Of a DNA stretch of 24,295 bases, positions 5,258 to 23,407 are shown one piece after another (the first letter of the stretch is position 1; the number at the start of each line of letters is the position of its first letter). The DNA is from a virus: positions 1-24,295 of the IMG/VR virus record IMGVR_UViG_3300046010_002194, one strand, 5' to 3'. The position numbers and the translations under genes are program-made. Below the pieces are notes generated by a model. It made no database searches, was not told where the DNA came from, and worked only from the letters and a program-made list of their open reading frames with translations.

Positions 5258-5717
5258 TGAGGATCGCTTCCTTTCGGGCGTTAGTGATGATTCCGATGCT
5301 GACCAGATAGTCCATGCCAGCGACCGTCCGTGGATCGTCGGACACGATCTCCTGAGCGAACGAGGCGGATCGGTAGAACGTGCGGACGCCGGGGTCGGTC
5401 AGCCTGCGGGATTCGATGTCCTCAAGCTCGCTCGGGGTGAACCGCTCAAGGAACTCAAGGGGAGTCCAAGTCTTGCGGAGCTCGTCTACGGTCTTGGGCC
5501 GGACGGACCACGCTTGCCGGACACGGGCAGTCTCGACGACGTAGAACGAATCCACGGCCTGGATCGTGGGGTCATAGATCGGATTAGGGTCGTTGACTAC
5601 GGGGCGGTATGACTGGGCCTTGGGGTTCCCGCTGGCAACCCATTGGGAGTACAGGTCGGGACGGATGTCCACGATCTGGTTGACGGTTCCGTTGATGACG
5701 TATGCGTATTCAGTCAT
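5250..5717 (-). CDS. Unknown tail-module protein (155 aa)
   Basis: The N-terminal 60 residues (MTEYAYVINGTVNQIVDIRP...) look like the short beta-rich segment common in proteins encoded next to phage fibres. The C-terminal half contains WTPLEFLERFTPSELEDIE and a conserved-looking end, DPRTVAGMDYLVSIGIITNARK. That C-terminal pattern occurs in many small phage proteins of unknown role near tail genes. A fibre-assembly or virion accessory function is inferred from position. The ATG has AAGGA 8 nt upstream and directly follows the LamG gene stop. Confidence 0.82.
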   Translation of the reverse strand: MTEYAYVINGTVNQIVDIRPDLYSQWVASGNPKAQSYRPVVNDPNPIYDPTIQAVDSFYVVETARVRQAWSVRPKTVDELRKTWTPLEFLERFTPSELEDIESRRLTDPGVRTFYRSASFAQEIVSDDPRTVAGMDYLVSIGIITNARKEAILNG

Positions 5718-6358
5718 TAGGCGATCCTTCGGGTGTGGTCGGCGACGGTCGGGGTGCTATTGACGTTGATGGTACGGGTAGCCATGAGATCATAGACCTC
5801 ACGGACAAGCGGGATGTACAGGACAAGATTTCCGGGACGCACCAACGACGGGCGAACGCCTCGGCTAAGGGAGTAGATCTCGTCGTCATTCAGGTCAGTA
5901 TCCCAGATCGCACATTCGGCAATGCGTCCTTCCATGTGAAGCGCATATGTTCCGTTTCGCCGCCTCGCACCGATCAGGGTTCTATTTATGAACCCACCAA
6001 ACGAGGAGAGCGTGGTTGTGTTGGTTGCCTTTGAGCCTCCATCTATAAACGCAGCTCTATTAGACAAATCCGTAAACACACCTGCGGCGTGGTGCCACGT
6101 TCCAGTGCTCGGTGCAGTTGCAGTGGTGGCAGTTGCCACAACTCCGCCGACTTCGCCGGACGCATATACACCACTTGAAGATGCTCCGATGACTTGAAAC
6201 TGGTTTCCTCCGCTTGAAGAACCGAATCCAAGCAATGTTCGGTTTGCGGTAAATGAGTCTGCATTGAACCAACAGGCCATGGTCAGCGGAAATGCCGTAA
6301 GGATTGCATTGTTGATTTCGTACCGCTGGCTCAGGCTTGAGTCAAAGTCAATAGACAT
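5717..6358 (-). CDS. LamG/concanavalin A-like lectin protein, candidate receptor binder
   Basis: The 213-residue protein has the hallmarks of a LamG-type jelly-roll. These are an early FPLTMACWFNAD strand, the central GTWHHAAGVFTD motif (the GxWxHxAxVfd signature), AAFIDGG and the late strand pattern RTLIGARRRNG followed by GRIAECAIWDTDLNDDEI. The end of the domain is followed by SLSRGVRPSLVRPGNLVLYIPL. Such domains bind glycans and are frequent in phage fibres and their accessory proteins. Lying between the fibre and the SGNH hydrolase, it probably contributes to recognition of a surface polysaccharide. AGGAG precedes the start by 9 nt and the gene directly abuts the fibre stop. Confidence 0.85.
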   Translation of the reverse strand: MSIDFDSSLSQRYEINNAILTAFPLTMACWFNADSFTANRTLLGFGSSSGGNQFQVIGASSSGVYASGEVGGVVATATTATAPSTGTWHHAAGVFTDLSNRAAFIDGGSKATNTTTLSSFGGFINRTLIGARRRNGTYALHMEGRIAECAIWDTDLNDDEIYSLSRGVRPSLVRPGNLVLYIPLVREVYDLMATRTINVNSTPTVADHTRRIA

Positions 6359-9115: not shown

Positions 9116-10774
9116 CTAGTGGCACTCGGCCCAGTTGTTTCCGACACGGTATGCTCCGTCCAAGGGACAGCCGGGGGTCAACTCCTGACCCGCACGGACG
9201 ATGCAGGAAACCGCAGCCTTGCCGACTTCCTCGGCGATCTCGGGCTCGCACTCGACCTGCCACTCGTCATGGATGTTGGCCATGATTCCGTAGCGGTTTG
9301 CGTAACGGTCCTCCAAGATTCCATGGAAATGGATCAGTGCCTGTTTCATGACCACGGCACCCGCCGATTGCAGCAACAGGTTCAACGCCATGTGATCGCT
9401 GCGAACAGGGAGCGAACGACCGTCCAGACCCACCAGATGTCCCTTGGCGGCAACTTCATACTTCAGCCTTTCCTTGAGCTTGGCGAACGCGGGGACGCCC
9501 CGCTCGAACTGCTCCTTGAGCTTCTTCCCTTGGGCTGCCGACCCGTTGACGATCTTCCCGACCTTGGCGTCGCCTGCCCCGTAGAGCGTCCCGTAGATGA
9601 ACGTCTTCGCTTGGTCTCGGGTAGGCAGTCCTGCCATCCTTTGGTTATGACTATGGATGTCACCCGTCGTGACCGTTCGGGCGTAGGCACCGGAGTCCCA
9701 TTCTGCCAGATAGTGGGCGAACATTCGTAGTTCAAGACCGGAAGCGTCAATGCCAACCTCGACCCATCCTGGTCGAGTTGGGCGAAAAAGAGATCGGCAC
9801 TCTCTTCCGTAGGGTGAACCCACGGCTGGCACCTGCGCCATGTTTGGATCACTGTGCGACATGCGTCCACTGACGCACCCGTTAGTGTTAACGCTACCGT
9901 GGACCCGGCCATCCACAGTATTGTCCAGCCATTGTCTGATTTGGGCAATGCGTTTCTCCAGTAGAAGATGCTTCTCCATCAGCCGGGCCTCGGGCCACGG
10001 CATGTCGGCCAACACCGACTCGTCAATCTTGGGCTTGCCGCCATCGGTGAGAACCTCGGGTTCCCACCCGTGCCGCTGGGTCATCCGCTCGGCGAACTGC
10101 TGCCGACTGCTGGGATTGAACGGCTCGTACTTGACCTTGGTCTTGAGCTTGATTTCCTTGGGCGGAAAGCTTTCCTGCAGGGCCGCTTGATTCGTGGCCA
10201 TGTCCGATTGGAGTTGGGCCATCAGCAGCGATGCTCCCTGCTCATCGAACCCGAAGCCGTTGTCGAGCTGATCGGCAATGACTCGGGCCACCTTGACCTC
10301 AAGGTCATAGGACCTGCTGAATCCGGTGGCTCTGGATCCGAGGTGCCGGTACACGGCGGCGGTCACGCGGACGTCTTGCATGTTGTACTTCAGCATGTCC
10401 CAGGTGAAGGTGGACCAGTCGGTCGGCGGCTCGCCCTTGGCGACACCAAGGAAATCCCCCCAGTCACTGAGTGAATTTCCACCAGCAGGGTGGGTATACC
10501 GGTCTGGATATAGCAGCCGACTGAGAACGATGGTGTCATGGACATCGGGGTGACTGAACCCGAGCAACCGGCGGAGAACCGGCATGTCGAACAGGATGCA
10601 GTTGTGCCCGATGATCCGGTCGTAAGACGCCAGCAGGTTCAGCCCCTCGGCAATACCCGAGGGGCCGAACCCGTGGACGTCTCCGGTCTGCAGGTCGAGG
10701 ATCGACAGGCAGTGGACCTTGCGGGCGGTCGTCAACAGGTTGTCGGCCTCGATGTCGAAGATCGCCCTACGCAT
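9116..10774 (-). CDS. DNA polymerase, family A, T7 gp5-like, short form
   Basis: The 552-residue enzyme has an N-terminal 3'-5' exonuclease (FDIEAD with D7 and E9, GHNCILFD near 57-63, QDVRVTAAVY around D134). A family A polymerase domain follows: motif A GIDASGLELR (D343), motif B RDQAKTFIYGTLYGAGD (R386, K390, Y394) and motif C IHDEWQVE (H502, D503). It ends NNWAECH, like T7 gp5 (NWAICH). T7 gp5 is 704 residues; most of the difference falls where T7 has its thioredoxin-binding loop, which here is about 15 residues. An upstream GTG at 10780 is possible, but GGAG lies 8 nt before the chosen ATG. It should replicate the genome with the primase-helicase and SSB encoded just upstream. Confidence 0.95.
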   Translation of the reverse strand: MRRAIFDIEADNLLTTARKVHCLSILDLQTGDVHGFGPSGIAEGLNLLASYDRIIGHNCILFDMPVLRRLLGFSHPDVHDTIVLSRLLYPDRYTHPAGGNSLSDWGDFLGVAKGEPPTDWSTFTWDMLKYNMQDVRVTAAVYRHLGSRATGFSRSYDLEVKVARVIADQLDNGFGFDEQGASLLMAQLQSDMATNQAALQESFPPKEIKLKTKVKYEPFNPSSRQQFAERMTQRHGWEPEVLTDGGKPKIDESVLADMPWPEARLMEKHLLLEKRIAQIRQWLDNTVDGRVHGSVNTNGCVSGRMSHSDPNMAQVPAVGSPYGRECRSLFRPTRPGWVEVGIDASGLELRMFAHYLAEWDSGAYARTVTTGDIHSHNQRMAGLPTRDQAKTFIYGTLYGAGDAKVGKIVNGSAAQGKKLKEQFERGVPAFAKLKERLKYEVAAKGHLVGLDGRSLPVRSDHMALNLLLQSAGAVVMKQALIHFHGILEDRYANRYGIMANIHDEWQVECEPEIAEEVGKAAVSCIVRAGQELTPGCPLDGAYRVGNNWAECH

Positions 10775-10776
10775 GG

Positions 10777-11022
10777 TCACTTCTCCGTGGTCTTCTTCTT
10801 GGTGGCCTCAAGGATCTCGACGCGACGATCGAGTTCGGCGGTCAGTTCCTTGAGTTCCTTGACGTGCAGGTTCAGGGCGTTGATCTGGTCGGTCAGTTCC
10901 TTGCCGTAACCGGCTTGGACCTGCAGTTCCTTGATCGCGGCCTTCAGGGTATCGACCTGCTGAAGAAGTTGCTTGGCGTTATAGGCAGTGTAACTGGGGA
11001 AGTTGTCAGGAATCTCGATCAT
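10777..11022 (-). CDS. Small coiled-coil protein
   Basis: The 81-residue product (start MIEIPDNFPSYTAYNAK) is helical from residue 15 onward. It has heptad-like leucines in LLQQVDTLKAAIKELQVQ and LNLHVKELKELTAELDRRVE and a lysine-rich C-terminus. I chose ATG 11022, with GGAG 6 nt upstream; a TTG four codons earlier is also in frame. It overlaps the ThyX end by 17 nt, and its stop overlaps the region of the DNA polymerase start. The role is unknown. Its place directly ahead of the polymerase allows, but does not show, a replisome accessory function. Confidence 0.82.
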   Translation of the reverse strand: MIEIPDNFPSYTAYNAKQLLQQVDTLKAAIKELQVQAGYGKELTDQINALNLHVKELKELTAELDRRVEILEATKKKTTEK

Positions 11023-11725
11023 TGATGTCTCCAAGAAGTGCGTTCCATGATACCGGGAACGTGGCGGTCATGTGAAAGTTGATGCTTGCTGCGATGCTGC
11101 GTGTCTCCTGCTGGGCGTGTGGGTCCATACGCAATCGGCACACGCGACTGAATGCGTACAGGCTGCCGGTCCACCACCATTCGGTGTACGTCCCCTGCGG
11201 CAGGACGGCACGGGCCTGCTCGGGGGCAACGCCGTCAGCGATCAGGCGACTGTACTCGTCCACGGCTTCCTGCATGATAGCCCAAGTCCGTGGCTGCAAG
11301 GGAACCTGACCGTCGCCGGAGCCCTGCTTGATGCTGCCCTCGGGGCGGGTTCGCCACGATCCACGGGGCAGCCAGAAGTCAGGCTCGTCGTCCACGTACC
11401 GGCGGGACACCTCGTTCCAGACCATGCCGACCTGGTGCTTGCCGAGCTGGCGAGCGACGAAGATCGGTGCACGGATGTGGAAGGTTGCCTGTGGGTGGGC
11501 AAAGGGGGTCCAGTGCCGGTTCCGTGCGAGGTAGTGGATCAGGCGGACGTCGGCATCCTTAAGGATCTTGTGGTTCTTCGGCACATAAGTGTCGGCCTCG
11601 TGATCGAACTCTTCGGTTTCGTACCGAATGTATGACGATTCTTTGGCGAACGATACCCGTGCCGCATTGACGACGGTCAGGTCGTCACCCATCCAGTCGA
11701 TCATGGTAACGTCAGGCATGAGCAT
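11006..11725 (-). CDS. thyX: Flavin-dependent thymidylate synthase ThyX
   Basis: The protein (239 aa from ATG 11725) contains a variant ThyX signature, RQLGKHQVGMVWNEVSRRY, corresponding to RHRxxSxNExSxRY. Other family features are MGDDLTVVNAARVSF near the N-terminus, LIHYLARNRHWTPFAHPQATFHI (the histidine-rich segment that helps bind FAD and substrate) and an RMDPHAQQETR motif near the C-terminus. ThyX converts dUMP to dTMP using methylene-tetrahydrofolate and FAD and does not need a separate dihydrofolate reductase step. It pairs with the downstream dNMP kinase for dNTP supply. The start is uncertain: TTG 11728, ATG 11725 and ATG 11716 are all in frame, and only a weak GTGGG lies upstream. 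Confidence 0.93.
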   Translation of the reverse strand: MLMPDVTMIDWMGDDLTVVNAARVSFAKESSYIRYETEEFDHEADTYVPKNHKILKDADVRLIHYLARNRHWTPFAHPQATFHIRAPIFVARQLGKHQVGMVWNEVSRRYVDDEPDFWLPRGSWRTRPEGSIKQGSGDGQVPLQPRTWAIMQEAVDEYSRLIADGVAPEQARAVLPQGTYTEWWWTGSLYAFSRVCRLRMDPHAQQETRSIAASINFHMTATFPVSWNALLGDINDRDS

Positions 11726-15073: not shown

Positions 15074-15750
15074 CGGCGATACTTCTCCTTGGGTCCGCAC
15101 TGCATGATCTCATGGAACGGGATGCCGTCGATGACGACGCCGCAACCCAGCACCGGCTTGCGGATCATGTTCTGGCCGTACCGCATTGCGACATGCTCAA
15201 TGTCCACCCCGCATCCGACATCCATTCCGAACACTCGGTTGGTCGGACCAGCGAGCCAGTGTACCCCGGCTTGGCTGTGATGGTGGCCCAGCACAGTAGA
15301 CTGCATTCGGAGCATGGCCGTACGCCAAGAGGGATTGACCCCCGAGGTCCCGGTCCCGTGGGTGTAATGCACCTTGTCGATGGTGTGCTCTCGCACCCAC
15401 TTCCAACCGGGGGTATGCCAGACATCAGCGTAGTCCTTCAGGTAAACGGGCGGGATCTTGACGGTGGAGGCCATGCGGGTGATCCGCTCGTCGTGGTTGC
15501 CGATGGTGACGATGGCCTTGGGAAACTCATTGTACCACCGATTGATCTCCTTCAGGGCTTCCTCGTACTCACGCTTGCTGTCCTTGGCCGAGACATCGGC
15601 GGGGTGCCGTGAGATCTGGTGGATGTCCACGACATCTCCGATGAACACGGTGGTTTCGGTTTCCCACGAGTCACGGACATCGCGAATGAAGTTCATGTAC
15701 TTGGGATGAACGGCTGGTAGGTGCAGATCCCCGATTACAAGCGTCCTCAT
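15070..15750 (-). CDS. Calcineurin-like metallophosphoesterase
   Basis: The 226-residue protein shows the complete metallophosphoesterase motif set: GDLHLP (D8, H10), GDVVD (39-42), GNHDER (84-89), the single histidine of YTHGTG (H131) and GHHH (155-158). These residues bind two metal ions in a DNA- or nucleotide-acting phosphatase fold. The substrate cannot be inferred; phage members have been proposed to act on DNA ends, cyclic nucleotides or phosphoproteins. AAGGAG lies a few bases before the ATG. The start is 80 nt inside the sigma region 4-like ORF, and the stop overlaps the membrane peptide. Confidence 0.92.
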   Translation of the reverse strand: MRTLVIGDLHLPAVHPKYMNFIRDVRDSWETETTVFIGDVVDIHQISRHPADVSAKDSKREYEEALKEINRWYNEFPKAIVTIGNHDERITRMASTVKIPPVYLKDYADVWHTPGWKWVREHTIDKVHYTHGTGTSGVNPSWRTAMLRMQSTVLGHHHSQAGVHWLAGPTNRVFGMDVGCGVDIEHVAMRYGQNMIRKPVLGCGVVIDGIPFHEIMQCGPKEKYRR

Positions 15751-15946
15751 ATCGCTCCTTGAGTAGCAGTCGGCCGCGTTCCTTGCGGCGGGTCATCGTC
15801 GTCACCGGCACGCCGACGATGGCGGCCGCTTCCTTGACGGTCATGTCCTTGATCACGGTCAGGTACAGGGCTTCCTTCAGGCTGTCGTTCTCAAGTCTAT
15901 CGTACAACGTCCCCAAGAGTTCCAAGTTTTCTGATCTTTCGTGCAT
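15671..15946 (-). CDS. Sigma-70 region 4-like helix-turn-helix protein (second half of a split ECF sigma?)
   Basis: From ATG 15946 the 91-residue product begins MHERSENLELLGTLYDRLEN. It continues with EALYLTVIKDMTVKEAAAIVGVPVTTMTRRKERGRLLLKERY (residues 26-67, quoted here in two overlapping parts: EALYLTVIKDMTVKEAAAIV and VGVPVTTMTRRKERGRLLL). That is the order of sigma region 4: a helix resembling LPERxREallL, then the HTH GxSxxEIAxxxGxSxxTVxxRxxRARxxL. GGAG lies 7 nt before the ATG, so it can be translated on its own. The first 50 nt overlap the region 2-like ORF in another frame. The last 80 nt overlap the phosphoesterase gene and encode a Ser/Arg-rich tail. It may bind a -35-like element or act as a small regulator. 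Confidence 0.75.
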   Translation of the reverse strand: MHERSENLELLGTLYDRLENDSLKEALYLTVIKDMTVKEAAAIVGVPVTTMTRRKERGRLLLKERYEDACNRGSAPTSRSSQVHELHSRCP

Positions 15947-16160
15947 TCCTGTTCTCCGTGCGGCGGTGGTTCTGGACCGTGCTGACCAACGCCCGGAACA
16001 TGTACGACAGTGTACACGACTCCGGGTTGTCGGAAGCCAGGCAGCGTGCGATGGCGGTGTGCACGACATCACGACGGTCTTGATATGGGACGCTGATCCG
16101 GGTCTTGACGAACGTCATCAAGGCCGGGTAGTTGGCAGTTACTTGTGCTTGCTTGGTCAT
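15897..16160 (-). CDS. Sigma-70 region 2-like protein (first half of a split ECF sigma?)
   Basis: The 87-residue product, MTKQAQVTANYPALMTFVKT..., matches the layout of ECF sigma region 2. PYQDRRDVVHTAIARCLAS aligns with the AEDxxQExFxRxW helix, and SYMFRALVSTVQNHRRTENR aligns with the WLxxIARNxxxDxxRR helix that binds core polymerase and the -10 element. There is no region 4. The frame stops 50 nt after the start of the region 4-like ORF. The ATG overlaps the RNA polymerase stop as ATGA. The similarity is by pattern only, so a structural or profile search is needed to settle it; a small unrelated helical protein is the alternative. Confidence 0.7.
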   Translation of the reverse strand: MTKQAQVTANYPALMTFVKTRISVPYQDRRDVVHTAIARCLASDNPESCTLSYMFRALVSTVQNHRRTENRNARKIRKLGTLGDVVR

Positions 16161-18487
16161 GTGAAGAAGTACTTGGATTGTCGGATGTCCTCAAGGTTCA
16201 GTTTACCCATCGCCGGAGGATCGGGCAAGTCCGGTATCCGCTTGCGAAGCGAGGCGGCGAAGTCATGCAGCAACGGGTTCTCGTGCATGGCGATGAACTC
16301 GTCACGAACCACCCTGTGCAGGATATCGACACGACCGGCATGGACGCCGATGGAATCGTGAATCCATGCCGAGTGTTTCCACTGGCGTTCCTCGAAGTTC
16401 AATGCCACCGCCATCAGGTGGGCCGCATCGTACGAGTGGATCAGGTTGGCCACGATCCCACGGATCTGGGCGGCGACGTCCAATGCCCGGTCCTTGGCGG
16501 GCACCAGCACCGAGCACCGGTGCAGTGCGGTCTTGATCTCCCTGCGGTCCTTGATCAAATAGGCTTGGCACACGGGGAATCCCTGCGGTGCTGTCCATGA
16601 GATGGGGTGTCCCTGCTCGGCCATGCGTTCCGTGGCATCCTGAAGCCAACGCATCAGTTCGGCTGACTTGACCACGACGTTACCGATGGCGTCACGGATG
16701 GAGCGTGCGAGATACCCGGCGATGGTCCGGGTGTTGTCGGCCATGTCATCGAGGTCGCCGTCCTGAATCAGGGCCAACTTCATGCCGAACCCGGAGATCC
16801 CGTAGGGGTACGCAAGGGTGCATCGCTTGACCATCTTGCGGGTGACTTGATCCTTCAGGACGGTCCACGGCTCGGGGGTGTCATGCTCGCTCTTGGCGGG
16901 CTTGGTCGCTGCGTCCCGGCGGATCAGTTCGTTGACGGCCTTGGCCACCCGGTCGTACATGTCCTGCGGGACGGGGCTGGGCACCAGGTTGACCGCCTCG
17001 CCGCCCACCTCGTCACGGGTCAACGCACTCAGGTGCTGCAGCCCGTTGTTGCTGCCGTCGATGTACACGCAGACCGACGACATATGGGTCTCGGGAGAAC
17101 CCGACAGCAGGGCCGCGTTCAGGTCAAGCATGGCGGCGACGAACTGCACGGGGTCGTCGTACTGCATCCACCGCTTGTCCTCATAGGGGTCGAACGAACG
17201 CTTGGCATAGTGCTTGACCCAGTTGTCCATGGTCCACTTGATCCGGTCGTCCACCGAGATCTTGTCCATGCCTGCACTGTTCGCCAAGGAGATCATCAGC
17301 GAGAACAGGCCGGTCTTCCCCAAGGCCAGCGTCTCGCTGAACATCAGCAGCCCACGGCACAGGTCATCGCCTTGGGGGTGCAGGTACGACGGCAACGGGT
17401 ACACACGGCCCCGGAAGTCGAGGTTATGGGGGAACCAGATGTCCTGATCACGGTACTTGTGGGCGATGGACAGCGTGCGGATGGTCGAGAATCTCCGTGA
17501 GTTGTCCTGATCACGGCGACGCCAGAACTCACGCCCGTGCTTCTCCCCCTTGGGGACGGCCTCGGAGGTCGCCGGAGGCAGCCCGGCCACCCCGCCACCG
17601 TTGGACCACAGCCGTTGCATGATGTCGAGCACGGCCCCGTTGATCCGCCATGGCGTGGACTGGATGTAGTTCAGGGCTTCCAGCGGAACCTGCATCGAGG
17701 GAATGTCATAGTCCACCTCGTGGTTCCCGAAGGCGTCCCTCACCAGCGGCTTCTGGATGAACAGGTATCCGCCCGTACCCTCGGTGGTCCAGTCCACCGG
17801 AGGCACCAGCATGGGCGGCAGCACCGGCTTCAGGATCTCAAGGTTCGAGTGCTGGCTGAGCAGCTCGTCGAGCACCTCGGGCTTGGGCTCGATGCGTACC
17901 TCACGCTGGGGACCATGGGTCTTGCAGTACCGCAGGTTGAACATCTTGGTGCTGTCCACCGCAATCCGAACAAGGGCACCGCCAAGCAGCAACTTGTCCG
18001 AGATGGTCCACTTGATCGGCTTCATCCCGGCCTTCTTGTAGATCTTCCTGATCTCAAGGTCCGACCAGTTCTTCTTGCGGATCTCGGTCTGCCCGAACCG
18101 TTCCTTGTTGTGAGCACGGATGGCGTCGTACATCAGTTCGGTGCGTACCCCACCGGCCACATCGATCTGGATCGAGGTGGACTTACGCTCGTCCCTCCAG
18201 TCGAGCATCTCGGCCAGCGTGATCAACGCCAACTTGTCCGACGAGATGACCATGAAGGGTGGCCACCATGTACCCGGACGACCACGACTCTTCATGGCCT
18301 TGAGGATGCGGCGCTTCTCGGCCTCGATGGCAGGCACCATGCGCTCCAGGGCCTTGCCGATGATCTTCCGCTCGGGCGTGTTGTGGACCGACCGTCGTTG
18401 CGATGCGATGTACCGATACCGGGCGACGCCCTGCTCGATACCGTCAAGTTCGTTGCTCTGTTCGATGGAGTACAGGTCACTGTTCAT
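16157..18487 (-). CDS. Single-subunit DNA-directed RNA polymerase (T7 gp1-like)
   Basis: The protein (776 aa from ATG 18487) has all catalytic motifs of phage RNA polymerases. These are VYIDGSNNGLQHLSA (catalytic Asp at about 477), VTRKMVKRCTLAYPYG (Lys about 554 and Tyr about 562, equivalent to T7 K631 and Y639) and WIHDSIGVHA (Asp about 711, equivalent to D812). The fingers region has NLDFRGRVYPLPSYLHPQG. It ends GKLNLEDIRQSKYFFT, resembling the T7 end but not finishing in FAFA. It is about 100 residues shorter than T7 gp1 (883), mainly in the N-terminal part. A TTG start at 18517 is possible; ATG 18487 follows a GGGGTG. It should transcribe middle and late phage genes from phage promoters that I could not identify. 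Confidence 0.97.
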   Translation of the reverse strand: MNSDLYSIEQSNELDGIEQGVARYRYIASQRRSVHNTPERKIIGKALERMVPAIEAEKRRILKAMKSRGRPGTWWPPFMVISSDKLALITLAEMLDWRDERKSTSIQIDVAGGVRTELMYDAIRAHNKERFGQTEIRKKNWSDLEIRKIYKKAGMKPIKWTISDKLLLGGALVRIAVDSTKMFNLRYCKTHGPQREVRIEPKPEVLDELLSQHSNLEILKPVLPPMLVPPVDWTTEGTGGYLFIQKPLVRDAFGNHEVDYDIPSMQVPLEALNYIQSTPWRINGAVLDIMQRLWSNGGGVAGLPPATSEAVPKGEKHGREFWRRRDQDNSRRFSTIRTLSIAHKYRDQDIWFPHNLDFRGRVYPLPSYLHPQGDDLCRGLLMFSETLALGKTGLFSLMISLANSAGMDKISVDDRIKWTMDNWVKHYAKRSFDPYEDKRWMQYDDPVQFVAAMLDLNAALLSGSPETHMSSVCVYIDGSNNGLQHLSALTRDEVGGEAVNLVPSPVPQDMYDRVAKAVNELIRRDAATKPAKSEHDTPEPWTVLKDQVTRKMVKRCTLAYPYGISGFGMKLALIQDGDLDDMADNTRTIAGYLARSIRDAIGNVVVKSAELMRWLQDATERMAEQGHPISWTAPQGFPVCQAYLIKDRREIKTALHRCSVLVPAKDRALDVAAQIRGIVANLIHSYDAAHLMAVALNFEERQWKHSAWIHDSIGVHAGRVDILHRVVRDEFIAMHENPLLHDFAASLRKRIPDLPDPPAMGKLNLEDIRQSKYFFT

Positions 18488-18556
18488 TATCGGACACCCC
18501 GTTTTGAACGACGCCAAACATCAATGGTCGGTACATAAGCGGTACTTGGGACGATT

Positions 18557-18573
18557 CTAAGATCGGATCTTAG
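18557..18573. promoter_or_regulatory. 17-nt palindrome CTAAGATC-G-GATCTTAG
   Basis: This is a perfect inverted repeat with 8-bp arms around one central base. It overlaps the -10-like TAAGAT of a candidate minus-strand promoter. The same 8-1-8 layout recurs at 18650-18666, which favours a dimeric DNA-binding protein site over chance. No regulator is identified. Confidence 0.6.
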
Positions 18574-18597
18574 ATCTGCCAAGGTGCTGTATGTCAA
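18567..18597 (-). promoter_or_regulatory. Candidate host sigma-70 promoter upstream of RNA polymerase
   Basis: On the minus strand a perfect TTGACA (18597-18592) is followed after 19 nt by TAAGAT (18572-18567). The spacer is longer than the usual 16-18 nt, which weakens the call. The -10 box lies inside the palindrome at 18557-18573, so binding there could block it. Confidence 0.4.
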
Positions 18598-18649
18598 GGC
18601 ATTAGATCAGGTTGTAGATCAGATCTAAGATCAGGTACTAAGATGATGA

Positions 18650-18666
18650 TATCAGATCATCTGATA
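18650..18666. promoter_or_regulatory. 17-nt palindrome TATCAGAT-C-ATCTGATA
   Basis: This is a second perfect inverted repeat with 8-bp arms and one central base, 93 nt from the first (start to start). It lies about 35 nt downstream of the extended -10 promoter candidate in the direction of transcription, a plausible operator position. Confidence 0.55.
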
Positions 18667-18698
18667 AGAACTGATCTAAGTGCGCTACTAAGTAGAGG

Positions 18699-18707
18699 AT
18701 TATATCA
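18699..18707 (-). promoter_or_regulatory. Extended -10 promoter candidate TGATATAAT
   Basis: The minus strand carries TG-A-TATAAT, a perfect consensus -10 hexamer with the TGn extension. No good -35 box lies 16-18 nt upstream, but extended -10 promoters often do without. It reads toward the RNA polymerase gene, about 210 nt away, through the palindrome cluster. Confidence 0.5.
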
Positions 18708-18757
18708 GGTGATTGAAGATCAGATGTAGGTCAGATCTTAGGCCTGATCCTAAGCCG

Positions 18758-18802
18758 GTACTTAGGGCTGATCTAAGTTCTACCTACATCAGCCCTAAGT
18801 AC
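18758..18802. repeat. 15-bp perfect inverted repeat with 15-nt spacer
   Basis: GTACTTAGGGCTGAT at 18758-18772 is exactly mirrored by ATCAGCCCTAAGTAC at 18788-18802. As RNA it would form a 15-bp stem on either strand. There is no U-run after it in the direction of transcription, so an intrinsic terminator is unlikely. A processing site such as an RNase III target, or a protein-binding site, fits better. Confidence 0.7.
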
Positions 18803-18815
18803 TGCTCTTAGTACT

Positions 18816-18834
18816 CTCTTGGTTTCTCCAAGAG
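18816..18834 (-). repeat. Small hairpin after the last early gene
   Basis: CTCTTGG and CCAAGAG flank a 5-nt loop, making a 7-bp stem 7 nt beyond the stop of the 73-aa gene. It lacks a T-run, so it may protect the 3' end of the early mRNA instead of terminating it. Confidence 0.45.
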
Positions 18835-18840
18835 TCAGCA

Positions 18841-19062
18841 CTAAATACCCTCCAGCGCCTTGATGACGTCTATGACCTTGTCGTACATCGGATCGCTGGG
18901 CAGGACGGGATCGGATACACCGTGTTGGAACAGTGTATACTCACACCACTCGTCATTCGACTGGCTGACCACGCTCCACCAGGTACCGTCCGTGTATCGG
19001 ACACGATATTTCATCGTCTTCATCTCACTCAAGATCTCCACCTCCATGTACTTATTGCCCAT
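18841..19062 (-). CDS. Unknown early protein (73 aa)
   Basis: ATG 19062 follows a strong GGAGGA by 6 nt; the longer in-frame opening to 19116 lacks such a site. The product begins MGNKYMEVEILSEMKTMKYR and has a beta-like segment VRYTDGTWWSVVSQSNDEW, then an acidic helical end DKVIDVIKALEGI. It is the last gene of the early block before the palindrome-rich region and overlaps its upstream neighbour by 11 nt. No family is recognised. Confidence 0.8.
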   Translation of the reverse strand: MGNKYMEVEILSEMKTMKYRVRYTDGTWWSVVSQSNDEWCEYTLFQHGVSDPVLPSDPMYDKVIDVIKALEGI

Positions 19063-19252
19063 TGACGTTCCTCCACTGGATGTTGAACCGCCGGTCACGC
19101 TCGGCCAGCATCGCATCGGCGATGTCGGCCACCTCGACTACCGTCATGCGGTTGGGCTTGTCCCGTGTGGTGCCGGGATGGTAACTCATCCCCAGCACCG
19201 ACGAGACATACACATCCCACGCCACCATCCGAAGATGATCCTGTTCACTCAT
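19052..19252 (-). CDS. Unknown early protein (66 aa)
   Basis: The product begins MSEQDHLRMVAWDVYVSSVL and has a charged helical C-terminal half (VVEVADIADAMLAERDRRFN). The middle is GMSYHPGTTRDKPNRMT. GAGGTG lies about 8 nt before the ATG. It overlaps both neighbours by a few bases. Small acidic early proteins of T7-type phages often inhibit host enzymes, but nothing in this sequence points to a specific target. Confidence 0.78.
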   Translation of the reverse strand: MSEQDHLRMVAWDVYVSSVLGMSYHPGTTRDKPNRMTVVEVADIADAMLAERDRRFNIQWRNVNGQ

Positions 19253-22828: not shown

Positions 22829-22921
22829 TTAGTCGTTGACCCATTCCATGAGGGACGCGAAGAGACCCGCGAGACCGATGATCCCGCCGATGAGCCCGGC
22901 GAACATGATGAACTCCAGCAT
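22829..22921 (-). CDS. 30-aa glycine-rich membrane peptide
   Basis: The frame reads MLEFIMFAGLIGGIIGLAGL and then FASLMEWVND, a single hydrophobic helix with small-residue GxxxG-like faces and an acidic tail. GGTAGGTAGGT lies directly upstream of the ATG. It is the first gene after a terminator-like hairpin. Its strong ribosome site and clean transmembrane profile support translation. The function is unknown; small glycine-rich helices can self-associate in membranes. Confidence 0.7.
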   Translation of the reverse strand: MLEFIMFAGLIGGIIGLAGLFASLMEWVND

Positions 22922-22937
22922 ACCTACCTACCTTTCC

Positions 22938-22952
22938 GCCCCTGGTCGGGGC
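22938..22952 (-). repeat. Small hairpin in the leader of the early block
   Basis: GCCCC and GGGGC flank five bases just upstream of the ribosome site of the 30-aa membrane peptide. It may shape the 5' end of the transcript. Confidence 0.4.
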
Positions 22953-22957
22953 ATGGT

Positions 22958-22998
22958 TGAAATGAAATCCCCGTAGCACCTTTCGATGCTACGGGGAT
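22958..22998 (-). terminator. Probable intrinsic terminator (12-bp stem)
   Basis: On the minus strand ATCCCCGTAGCA pairs perfectly with TGCTACGGGGAT around the 8-nt loop TCGAAAGG, followed by TTCATTTCAA. A 12-bp GC-rich stem followed by a T-rich stretch fits a Rho-independent terminator, though the T-run is interrupted. It ends the structured untranslated region in front of the main early gene block, so the early genes need read-through or another promoter. Confidence 0.65.
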
Positions 22999-23009
22999 CG
23001 TTACGGACC

Positions 23010-23023
23010 TACCTAGTGTCCGT
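23010..23023. repeat. 14-nt direct repeat, copy 1
   Basis: TACCTAGTGTCCGT here is identical to the copy at 23394-23407, 384 nt away. Flanking bases differ. A 14-nt exact match within an untranslated region suggests a binding or promoter site. Confidence 0.5.
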
Positions 23024-23393
23024 TGTGTCTATGTTGTATCTCGATTCTATAGGTACCTGGCACCCTTGCTATCGGGTCCGATGGTACCTACCTACCGCAT
23101 TGCACGACCGGCAGAGATTGACCGGCTCCCGATTCGGCGGATACCTGGGTATCGACCTACCACGATACCGAAAGCGTATCGTACGGGGTCATTCGTGCTG
23201 GGTACTTGCGTACCCGAGCGGGTTACTTTATCGGCAAGCGTCCGTCACGCCATGATTCTGCCCTGTTACCCCATGGGACACTACCTACCGCGTACCTAGG
23301 GGACCATTCCTACCTTCGGGGATTCGTCCGTTGCGGGGGCGTAGTACGCTTGCCCGACGGTCGATTCCCGTACGGATCCATTCCGATGCCGGA

Positions 23394-23407
23394 TACCTAG
23401 TGTCCGT
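23394..23407. repeat. 14-nt direct repeat, copy 2
   Basis: This is the second exact copy of the 14-mer described at 23010-23023. A further shared word, GGGGACCATT, occurs at about 23299-23308 and 23427-23436. Confidence 0.5.

Follow-up and report, generated by a model that had tools for sequence, protein, structure and literature searches.

Organization of the locus

The window, as we call the whole stretch of DNA analyzed here, is a 24,295-base record of a T7-like phage with its main genes on the minus strand. The early genes occupy 24.3 to 18.84 kb and are followed by a repeat array, the RNA polymerase (RNAP) gene, and a gene for a sigma-region-4-like HTH protein, after which come phosphoesterase, SSB, RusA, primase-helicase, thymidylate synthase, DNA polymerase, exonuclease, and portal (Table 1). 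The RNAP gave full-length tblastn matches to Autographiviridae RNAPs, and its reading frame probably begins at ATG 18487 (MNSDLY...), which is the start listed for the close relative G001, and not at the TTG at 18517. The HTH protein matched PF08281 with an E value of 3.8e-6 when read from its 118-aa start.

Table 1. Features of the RNAP locus in the window
Feature	Position	Strand	Evidence or remark
Repeat array, 12 CTAAG/CTTAG words with degenerate copies between	18557..18811	.	neighbors mostly 11-13 bp apart
Perfect palindrome TCTAAGATCGGATCTTAGA, junction of two adjacent array units	18556..18574	.	sequence
Perfect palindrome TATCAGATCATCTGATA	18650..18666	.	TATCAGAT-C-ATCTGATA, 8-1-8
Longest inverted repeat in array, GTACTTAGGGCTGATGTAGGT-AGA-ACTTAGATCAGCCCTAAGTAC	18758..18802	(-)	sequence and RNA fold
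T7-type phage-promoter-like element ATTTAGTGCTGACTCTT-GGAGAA, -17 to +6	18824..18846	(-)	+1 at 18829, toward RNAP gene
Short inverted repeat CTCTTGG-AGAAA-CCAAGAG over start site	18816..18834	(-)	sequence
Single-subunit phage RNAP gene	16157..18517	(-)	PHROG 414, E 5e-178
Last early gene before array, 91 aa, function unassigned	18841..19116	(-)	unrelated gene here in G001
Small HTH protein resembling sigma-70 region 4, directly after RNAP gene	15671..16072	(-)	PF08281, E 5e-6

A 12-bp register organizes the repeat array

The original prediction described a dense array of GATC sites, CTAAG/CTTAG words, and palindromes in AT-rich DNA before the RNAP gene, and recounts together with shuffles confirmed all of its counts. 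There are 13 GATC sites in 18556-18811, compared with a mean of 2.7 and a maximum of 9 in dinucleotide shuffles (n = 1000). The array holds 12 of the 14 CTAAG/CTTAG words of the whole 24.3-kb window (shuffle mean 1.05, maximum 5), and the composite GATCTWAG/CTWAGATC occurs eight times within it and nowhere else in the window (shuffle mean 0.08, maximum 2). Because word and GATC counts lie far above those of the shuffles, a chance origin of the repeats was rejected. Both predicted 17-nt palindromes of 8-1-8 layout are present, the first of them extending to a 9-1-9 palindrome (TCTAAGATC-G-GATCTTAGA), and the predicted 15-bp inverted repeat is the perfect core of 21-nt arms (18758-18778 and 18782-18802) that pair at 90%. 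The array is indeed AT-richer than its surroundings (GC 0.43 versus about 0.60), and a 200-bp segment behind the promoter-like element, with a GC content of 0.40, is the lowest in the record, in keeping with the AT-rich character of a T7-type primary origin.

The organizing feature of the region, which the original prediction overlooked, is a 12-bp register. The CTWAG words start at 18557, 18569, 18625, 18638, 18676, 18688, 18737, 18750, 18761, 18773, 18795, and 18807, with spacings, from the higher coordinates down, of 12, 22, 12, 11, 13, 49, 12, 38, 13, 56, and 12 bp, and the autocorrelation of the array is maximal at lags 12 (0.39) and 24 (0.33); the array thus shows the 11-13-bp register of T7-type short-repeat arrays. 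When the word is widened to CT(A/T)1-3AG, the array contains 10 copies per 200 bp, whereas the next densest place in the window has 1, the mean is 0.16, and simulated genomes reach at most 3. The array is therefore the sole cluster of this word in the window, as expected of a T7-type promoter-associated or terminal array. Adjacent CTWAG units with GAT/ATC flanks automatically generate much of the GATC as well as the first 8-1-8 palindrome. Consequently, the weight that had been placed on GATC is unsupported, and a Dam or restriction reading was rejected because the sites stem from these flanks and the arrays of other phages are without GATC. A blastn comparison of the array with phages returned spurious short matches only.

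A phage-promoter-like element borders the array

A T7-promoter-like 23-mer, with partial likeness to the T7 promoter, lies at the edge of the array. A position weight matrix made from it found one site in the window (33.2 bits; next best 12.8) and, in G001, one further good copy just before the tail-fiber gene, giving two there. Its layout matches the promoters of the sister phages G004 and G005 (RNAP identity 35-42%), and by analogy with these elements we infer that the window uses ATTTAGTGCTGACTCTT-GGAGAA as its phage promoter. In G005, three of the four copies of the T7-promoter-like TTAATGTCCACCTCATAGGAGAAG, and in G004, two of the three copies of GCCGMCTAYATGAAGGAMC, are followed by CTATAG/CATAG-type arrays. 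Inverted repeats after the start site, such as the one in Table 1, are also found at T3 phi1.05 and K11 phi1.05. As for the host-type promoter that had been read toward the RNAP gene, TATAAT and TTGACA boxes do exist, but they do not form a pair: TATAAT is without a -35 box, and TTGACA is ∼110 nt off. A host sigma-70 promoter pair was thus rejected, a sigma-70 scan finding 1 site compared with 1.0 in shuffles.

Other phages have a promoter in this position. In gh-1, the annotated promoter phi1 directly precedes the RNAP gene and is followed by two CTTAAAG words 23 bp apart with CTCAAAG midway, an array that is very short compared with that of the window. LUZ100 phi1, likewise directly upstream of the RNAP gene, is a phage promoter that has been mapped experimentally, although LUZ100, unlike the window, is temperate-like, with MarR and integrase (PMC10134795). 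Among ∼55 RNAP loci from IMG/VR, some of which are mutually related and hence not all independent, clusters of at least 5 words (p < 1e-4) lie upstream of the RNAP gene, mostly within 200 bp, in L049, L058, L059, L065, L036, and L047; in L022 the cluster is 1.5 kb away.

The array is retained in close relatives

Searches of IMG/VR yielded only two close relatives, L004 (99.99%) and G001 (also L003), whose 42.95-kb contig begins and ends with one identical stretch of ∼137 bases; SSB as bait found no further ones. Homology with G001 starts exactly at the first base (-17, 18846) of the ATTTAGTRCYGACTCTTGGAGAA promoter-like element and runs through the array and RNAP gene, whereas the early genes upstream are unrelated. 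G001 keeps the array minus exactly 12 bp, which is one unit, and carries one base change within the longest inverted repeat that makes its pairing longer. The two arrays differ at 6 of 317 aligned nucleotides, a level of conservation close to that of the RNAP gene (1.6%), and the fourfold sites of most genes tested are more diverged (4-18%), two short genes being at 1.3% and 3.7%. The array is thus kept in both relatives, although both are very close and are the sole two comparable; its conservation is weakly compatible with constraint, which is not separable from recent descent because only these two near-identical relatives share the exact array.

The same word class marks origins and ends of T7, T3, and K11 and the left end of SP6

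We scanned other genomes for the density of CT(A/T)1-3AG, a word class chosen after seeing the window array. The densest places are 161 (left-end array), 39641 (right-end array), and 5901 (primary origin) in T7; 101 and 37821 (both ends) and 5661 (annotated rep_origin 5682-5758) in T3; and 221 (left end) in SP6. The scan showed weak clusters in gh-1 and BB8 and none in phiKMV or P-SSP7. Among self-complementary classes of the form XY(A/T)1-3Y'X', CT..AG ranks first in the window, G001, G003, G005, and SP6, but in T7 and T3 the overlapping TT..AA class outscores it, as do two further classes in T7. Pooled word spacings of the other phages peak at 11-13 bp, where the three bins hold 12, 26, and 18 cases compared with 9 and 6 in the bins on either side.

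These arrays contradict the earlier statement that T7 is without this repeat design. The T7 left end carries CCTAAAG at 13-bp spacing, its right-end array consists of CCTAAGG, CCTAAAG, and CCTATAGG, and behind phi1.1B in the primary origin stand CTTAAG, CTTTAAG, CTTAAG, CTAAG, and CTTTAAG at 10-12 bp. The annotated T3 origin and K11 phi1.05 look like the T7 primary-origin array, and the SP6 left end has CTTAG at steps of 12, 12, 12, and 12 bp. Furthermore, words downstream of annotated promoters are more numerous at origin- and end-type promoters (1.1/1.05, OL, OR, 6.5, and 13) than at others (permutation p = 0.0012, 0.002, and 0.0016 in T7, T3, and K11), and the most lie behind phi1.1B in T7 and phi1.05 in T3. 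This comparison uses background labels for the secondary origins of T7, T3, and K11, and the T7 origin labels are likewise background, used together with the T3 annotation. To our knowledge, the T7 terminal repeats and the AT-rich part of the origin have been known for decades with no recognition factor assigned to them, and a literature search found no open paper on the function of the T7 CCTAAAG arrays.

The array is probably a T7-type origin array

Of the operator, origin, and RNA-processing roles put forward in the original prediction, an origin has the strongest support: primary origins and genome ends of T7, T3, and K11 carry arrays of this word class and spacing, and a phage-promoter-like element precedes the array of the window. 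We therefore read the locus as a T7-type array in which a putative promoter for the phage's own polymerase (18846-18824) stands before some 255 bp of AT-rich CTWAG DNA that leads up to the RNAP gene, and we place its service as the primary origin just on the probable side. By analogy with T7, host transcription from early promoters would supply the initial phage polymerase, which would then fire the promoter at 18846-18824, boosting its own gene, and transcription would open the AT-rich array and leave an RNA that the phage DNA polymerase could extend, as at T7 phi1.1A/B, so that the array would act as the primary origin. We infer both promoter activity and origin function for this region, and some factor may likewise bind the CTWAG words. 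The only array-binding candidate noticed is, speculatively, the sigma-region-4-like HTH protein.

Consistent with an origin, the primary origins of T7 (phi1.1A/B) and T3 (phi1.05) have a phage promoter directly before an AT-rich word array, as the putative promoter stands before the array in the window, with CTTAAG, CTTTAAG, and CTAAG mostly 9-14 bp apart, and T3 origin GGTACTAAGAGA corresponds to window AGTACTAAGAGC. The array lies 5.5-5.8 kb from the early-gene end of the window, and the T7 origin is at 5.85-5.98 kb. However, the T7, T3, and K11 origins follow the RNAP gene, a T7-type origin being located downstream of it and before the class II genes, whereas the window array precedes it; neither the density scan nor the promoter matrix revealed an array or promoter copy right after the window RNAP gene. 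The T7 and T3 origins are also shorter (60-100 bp with 5-6 words, versus about 255 bp with 12 words), and the window array is more palindromic and GATC-rich. A GC-skew switch was dropped as origin evidence because T7 itself shows none at its origin.

An operator array, in which the palindromic 11-bp sites would be bound cooperatively by a dimeric repressor or activator, encoded by the phage or the host, that controls the RNAP gene, appears unlikely. Palindromic, regularly spaced sites between promoter and RNAP gene would suit it, as would the sigma-region-4-like HTH genes near the arrays or RNAP gene in the window, G004, and G005, but the same word class occurs at the T7, T3, and SP6 ends, for which we know of no MarR-like or comparable regulator. 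For T7-like phages, specifically temperate ones, it has been hypothesized that sites for MarR surround the RNAP promoter (PMC10134795). In the window record and G001, no MarR (PF12802, PF01047) or HTH_3 gene was found, so that an operator for such a protein was rejected; there is no integrase in either, and an RHH match in the window is sub-threshold only.

The word class alone does not mean an origin, because it also forms terminal arrays. Accordingly, we considered a T7-type terminal array for concatemer processing or packaging that has moved inward or marks a nearby physical end, which we judge rather unlikely. Word and spacing fit the left ends of T7 (CCTAAAG, 13 bp) and SP6 (CTTAG, 12 bp) better than the short origin arrays; the T7 left- and right-end and SP6 left-end arrays share the word class and a 12-13-bp register with the window, and the SP6 word CTTAG is identical. 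Unlike the window array, however, the T7 and SP6 arrays lie at genome ends, with left-end words in one orientation. T7-type ends adjoin the terminase gene, whereas the G001 array lies about 6.4 kb after it with early genes between, and G005 has a separate array at the terminase-adjacent place. Yersinia fPS phages carry variable-number short repeats between the left terminal repeat and promoter P1 (PMC5923468); these stand beside a phage promoter like those of the window, but they are terminal, and their repeat sequences were not seen in the window.

RNA processing, by which RNase III or another activity would cut hairpins of the transcribed array ahead of the RNAP cistron, is improbable. The array RNA is foldable (-109.4 versus -83.9 kcal/mol for shuffles, z = -4.2), and the T3 RNase III site R1 lies just before gene 1; yet palindromic repeats fold well trivially, the R1 sequence is without such words, the T7 and SP6 end arrays are direct 12-13-bp repeats and not hairpins, and an Rfam search of the array gave no match above threshold. 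Comparison of the fold is limited to near-identical relatives.

Temperate relatives suggest a further reading, an attachment site of the phage carrying arm-type repeats for an integrase, but it is largely refuted because G001 has no integrase: although L040, L088, L068, L026, L048, and L092 carry GTGACA/GTGCCA repeats upstream of the RNAP gene, several by tRNA-like sequence, and L047 (G003) has an integrase and CTWAG words there, neither the window nor G001 has an integrase (PF00589) or tRNA, the CTWnAG words of L036 and L062 are separate from the arm-type repeats, and integrase arm sites were hence rejected as a very remote prospect.

The array is thus most likely a T7-type origin/terminal array, exceptional in its length and regularity, and does not represent a novel sort of element. 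Its position could couple replication initiation to polymerase auto-activation. More broadly, and with some doubt, we propose that CT(A/T)1-3AG in an 11-13-bp register may be a cis-element shared across the family by many T7-like phages and marking their origins and ends, in which the word drifts (CCTAAAG, CTTAG, CTATAG, and CTWAG) while the spacing is kept, as a single common protein or a constraint on DNA structure would require; the window would be the longest internal example seen, with one promoter both to fire the origin and to auto-activate the polymerase. So long and regular an array of the T7 origin/end word class before an RNAP gene makes the function of such repeats directly testable, and word density, which singles out the promoters of origin type in T7, T3, and K11, offers a sequence-based way to predict origins in T7-like phages that have not been cultured.

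Additional sequence features

Several further repeats were observed. In the early noncoding region of the window, the exact repeat ACGGACACTAGGTA occurs at 23010-23023 and 23394-23407 on the minus strand and was rejected as a phage promoter because there are two copies only, both in the early region; ACCTA/GGTAGG runs and TAGG-rich repeats lie at about 22900-23100. In the early region of G001 (L011), odd palindromes TGTTTCAC(C/T)GTGAAACA at about 6557, 7400, 7664, 8095, and 8493 resemble the ParB site parS enlarged by a single base at its center. Positions 37000-37420 of G003 (minus strand) hold 15-bp coding repeats (A-N/D-L-x-x) of a pentapeptide-repeat-like early-region protein.

GTGACA repeats upstream of the RNAP gene were seen in L040, L088, L068, and L026 and GTGCCA repeats in L048, L056, and L092; several adjoin tRNA-like sequence and an integrase gene, and these repeats probably serve temperate T7-like phages as integrase arm sites. 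G005 (plus-strand 10527-11201, minus) and G004 (41173-41631, minus) encode HTH proteins resembling sigma factors (weak PF08281) immediately upstream of phage promoter and array, whereas the related-looking HTH gene of the window follows the RNAP gene. The motif AAATCGAC-NN-GGGGTC is common to the terminase-adjacent regions of G001 (about 6392), G004 (about 3590), and G005 (about 16150) and is possibly a packaging or terminus signal. Finally, the 12-mer CCTAAGGTATAC is common to the T7 right-end array (39620-39635) and the G005 array (reverse complement, about 26900).
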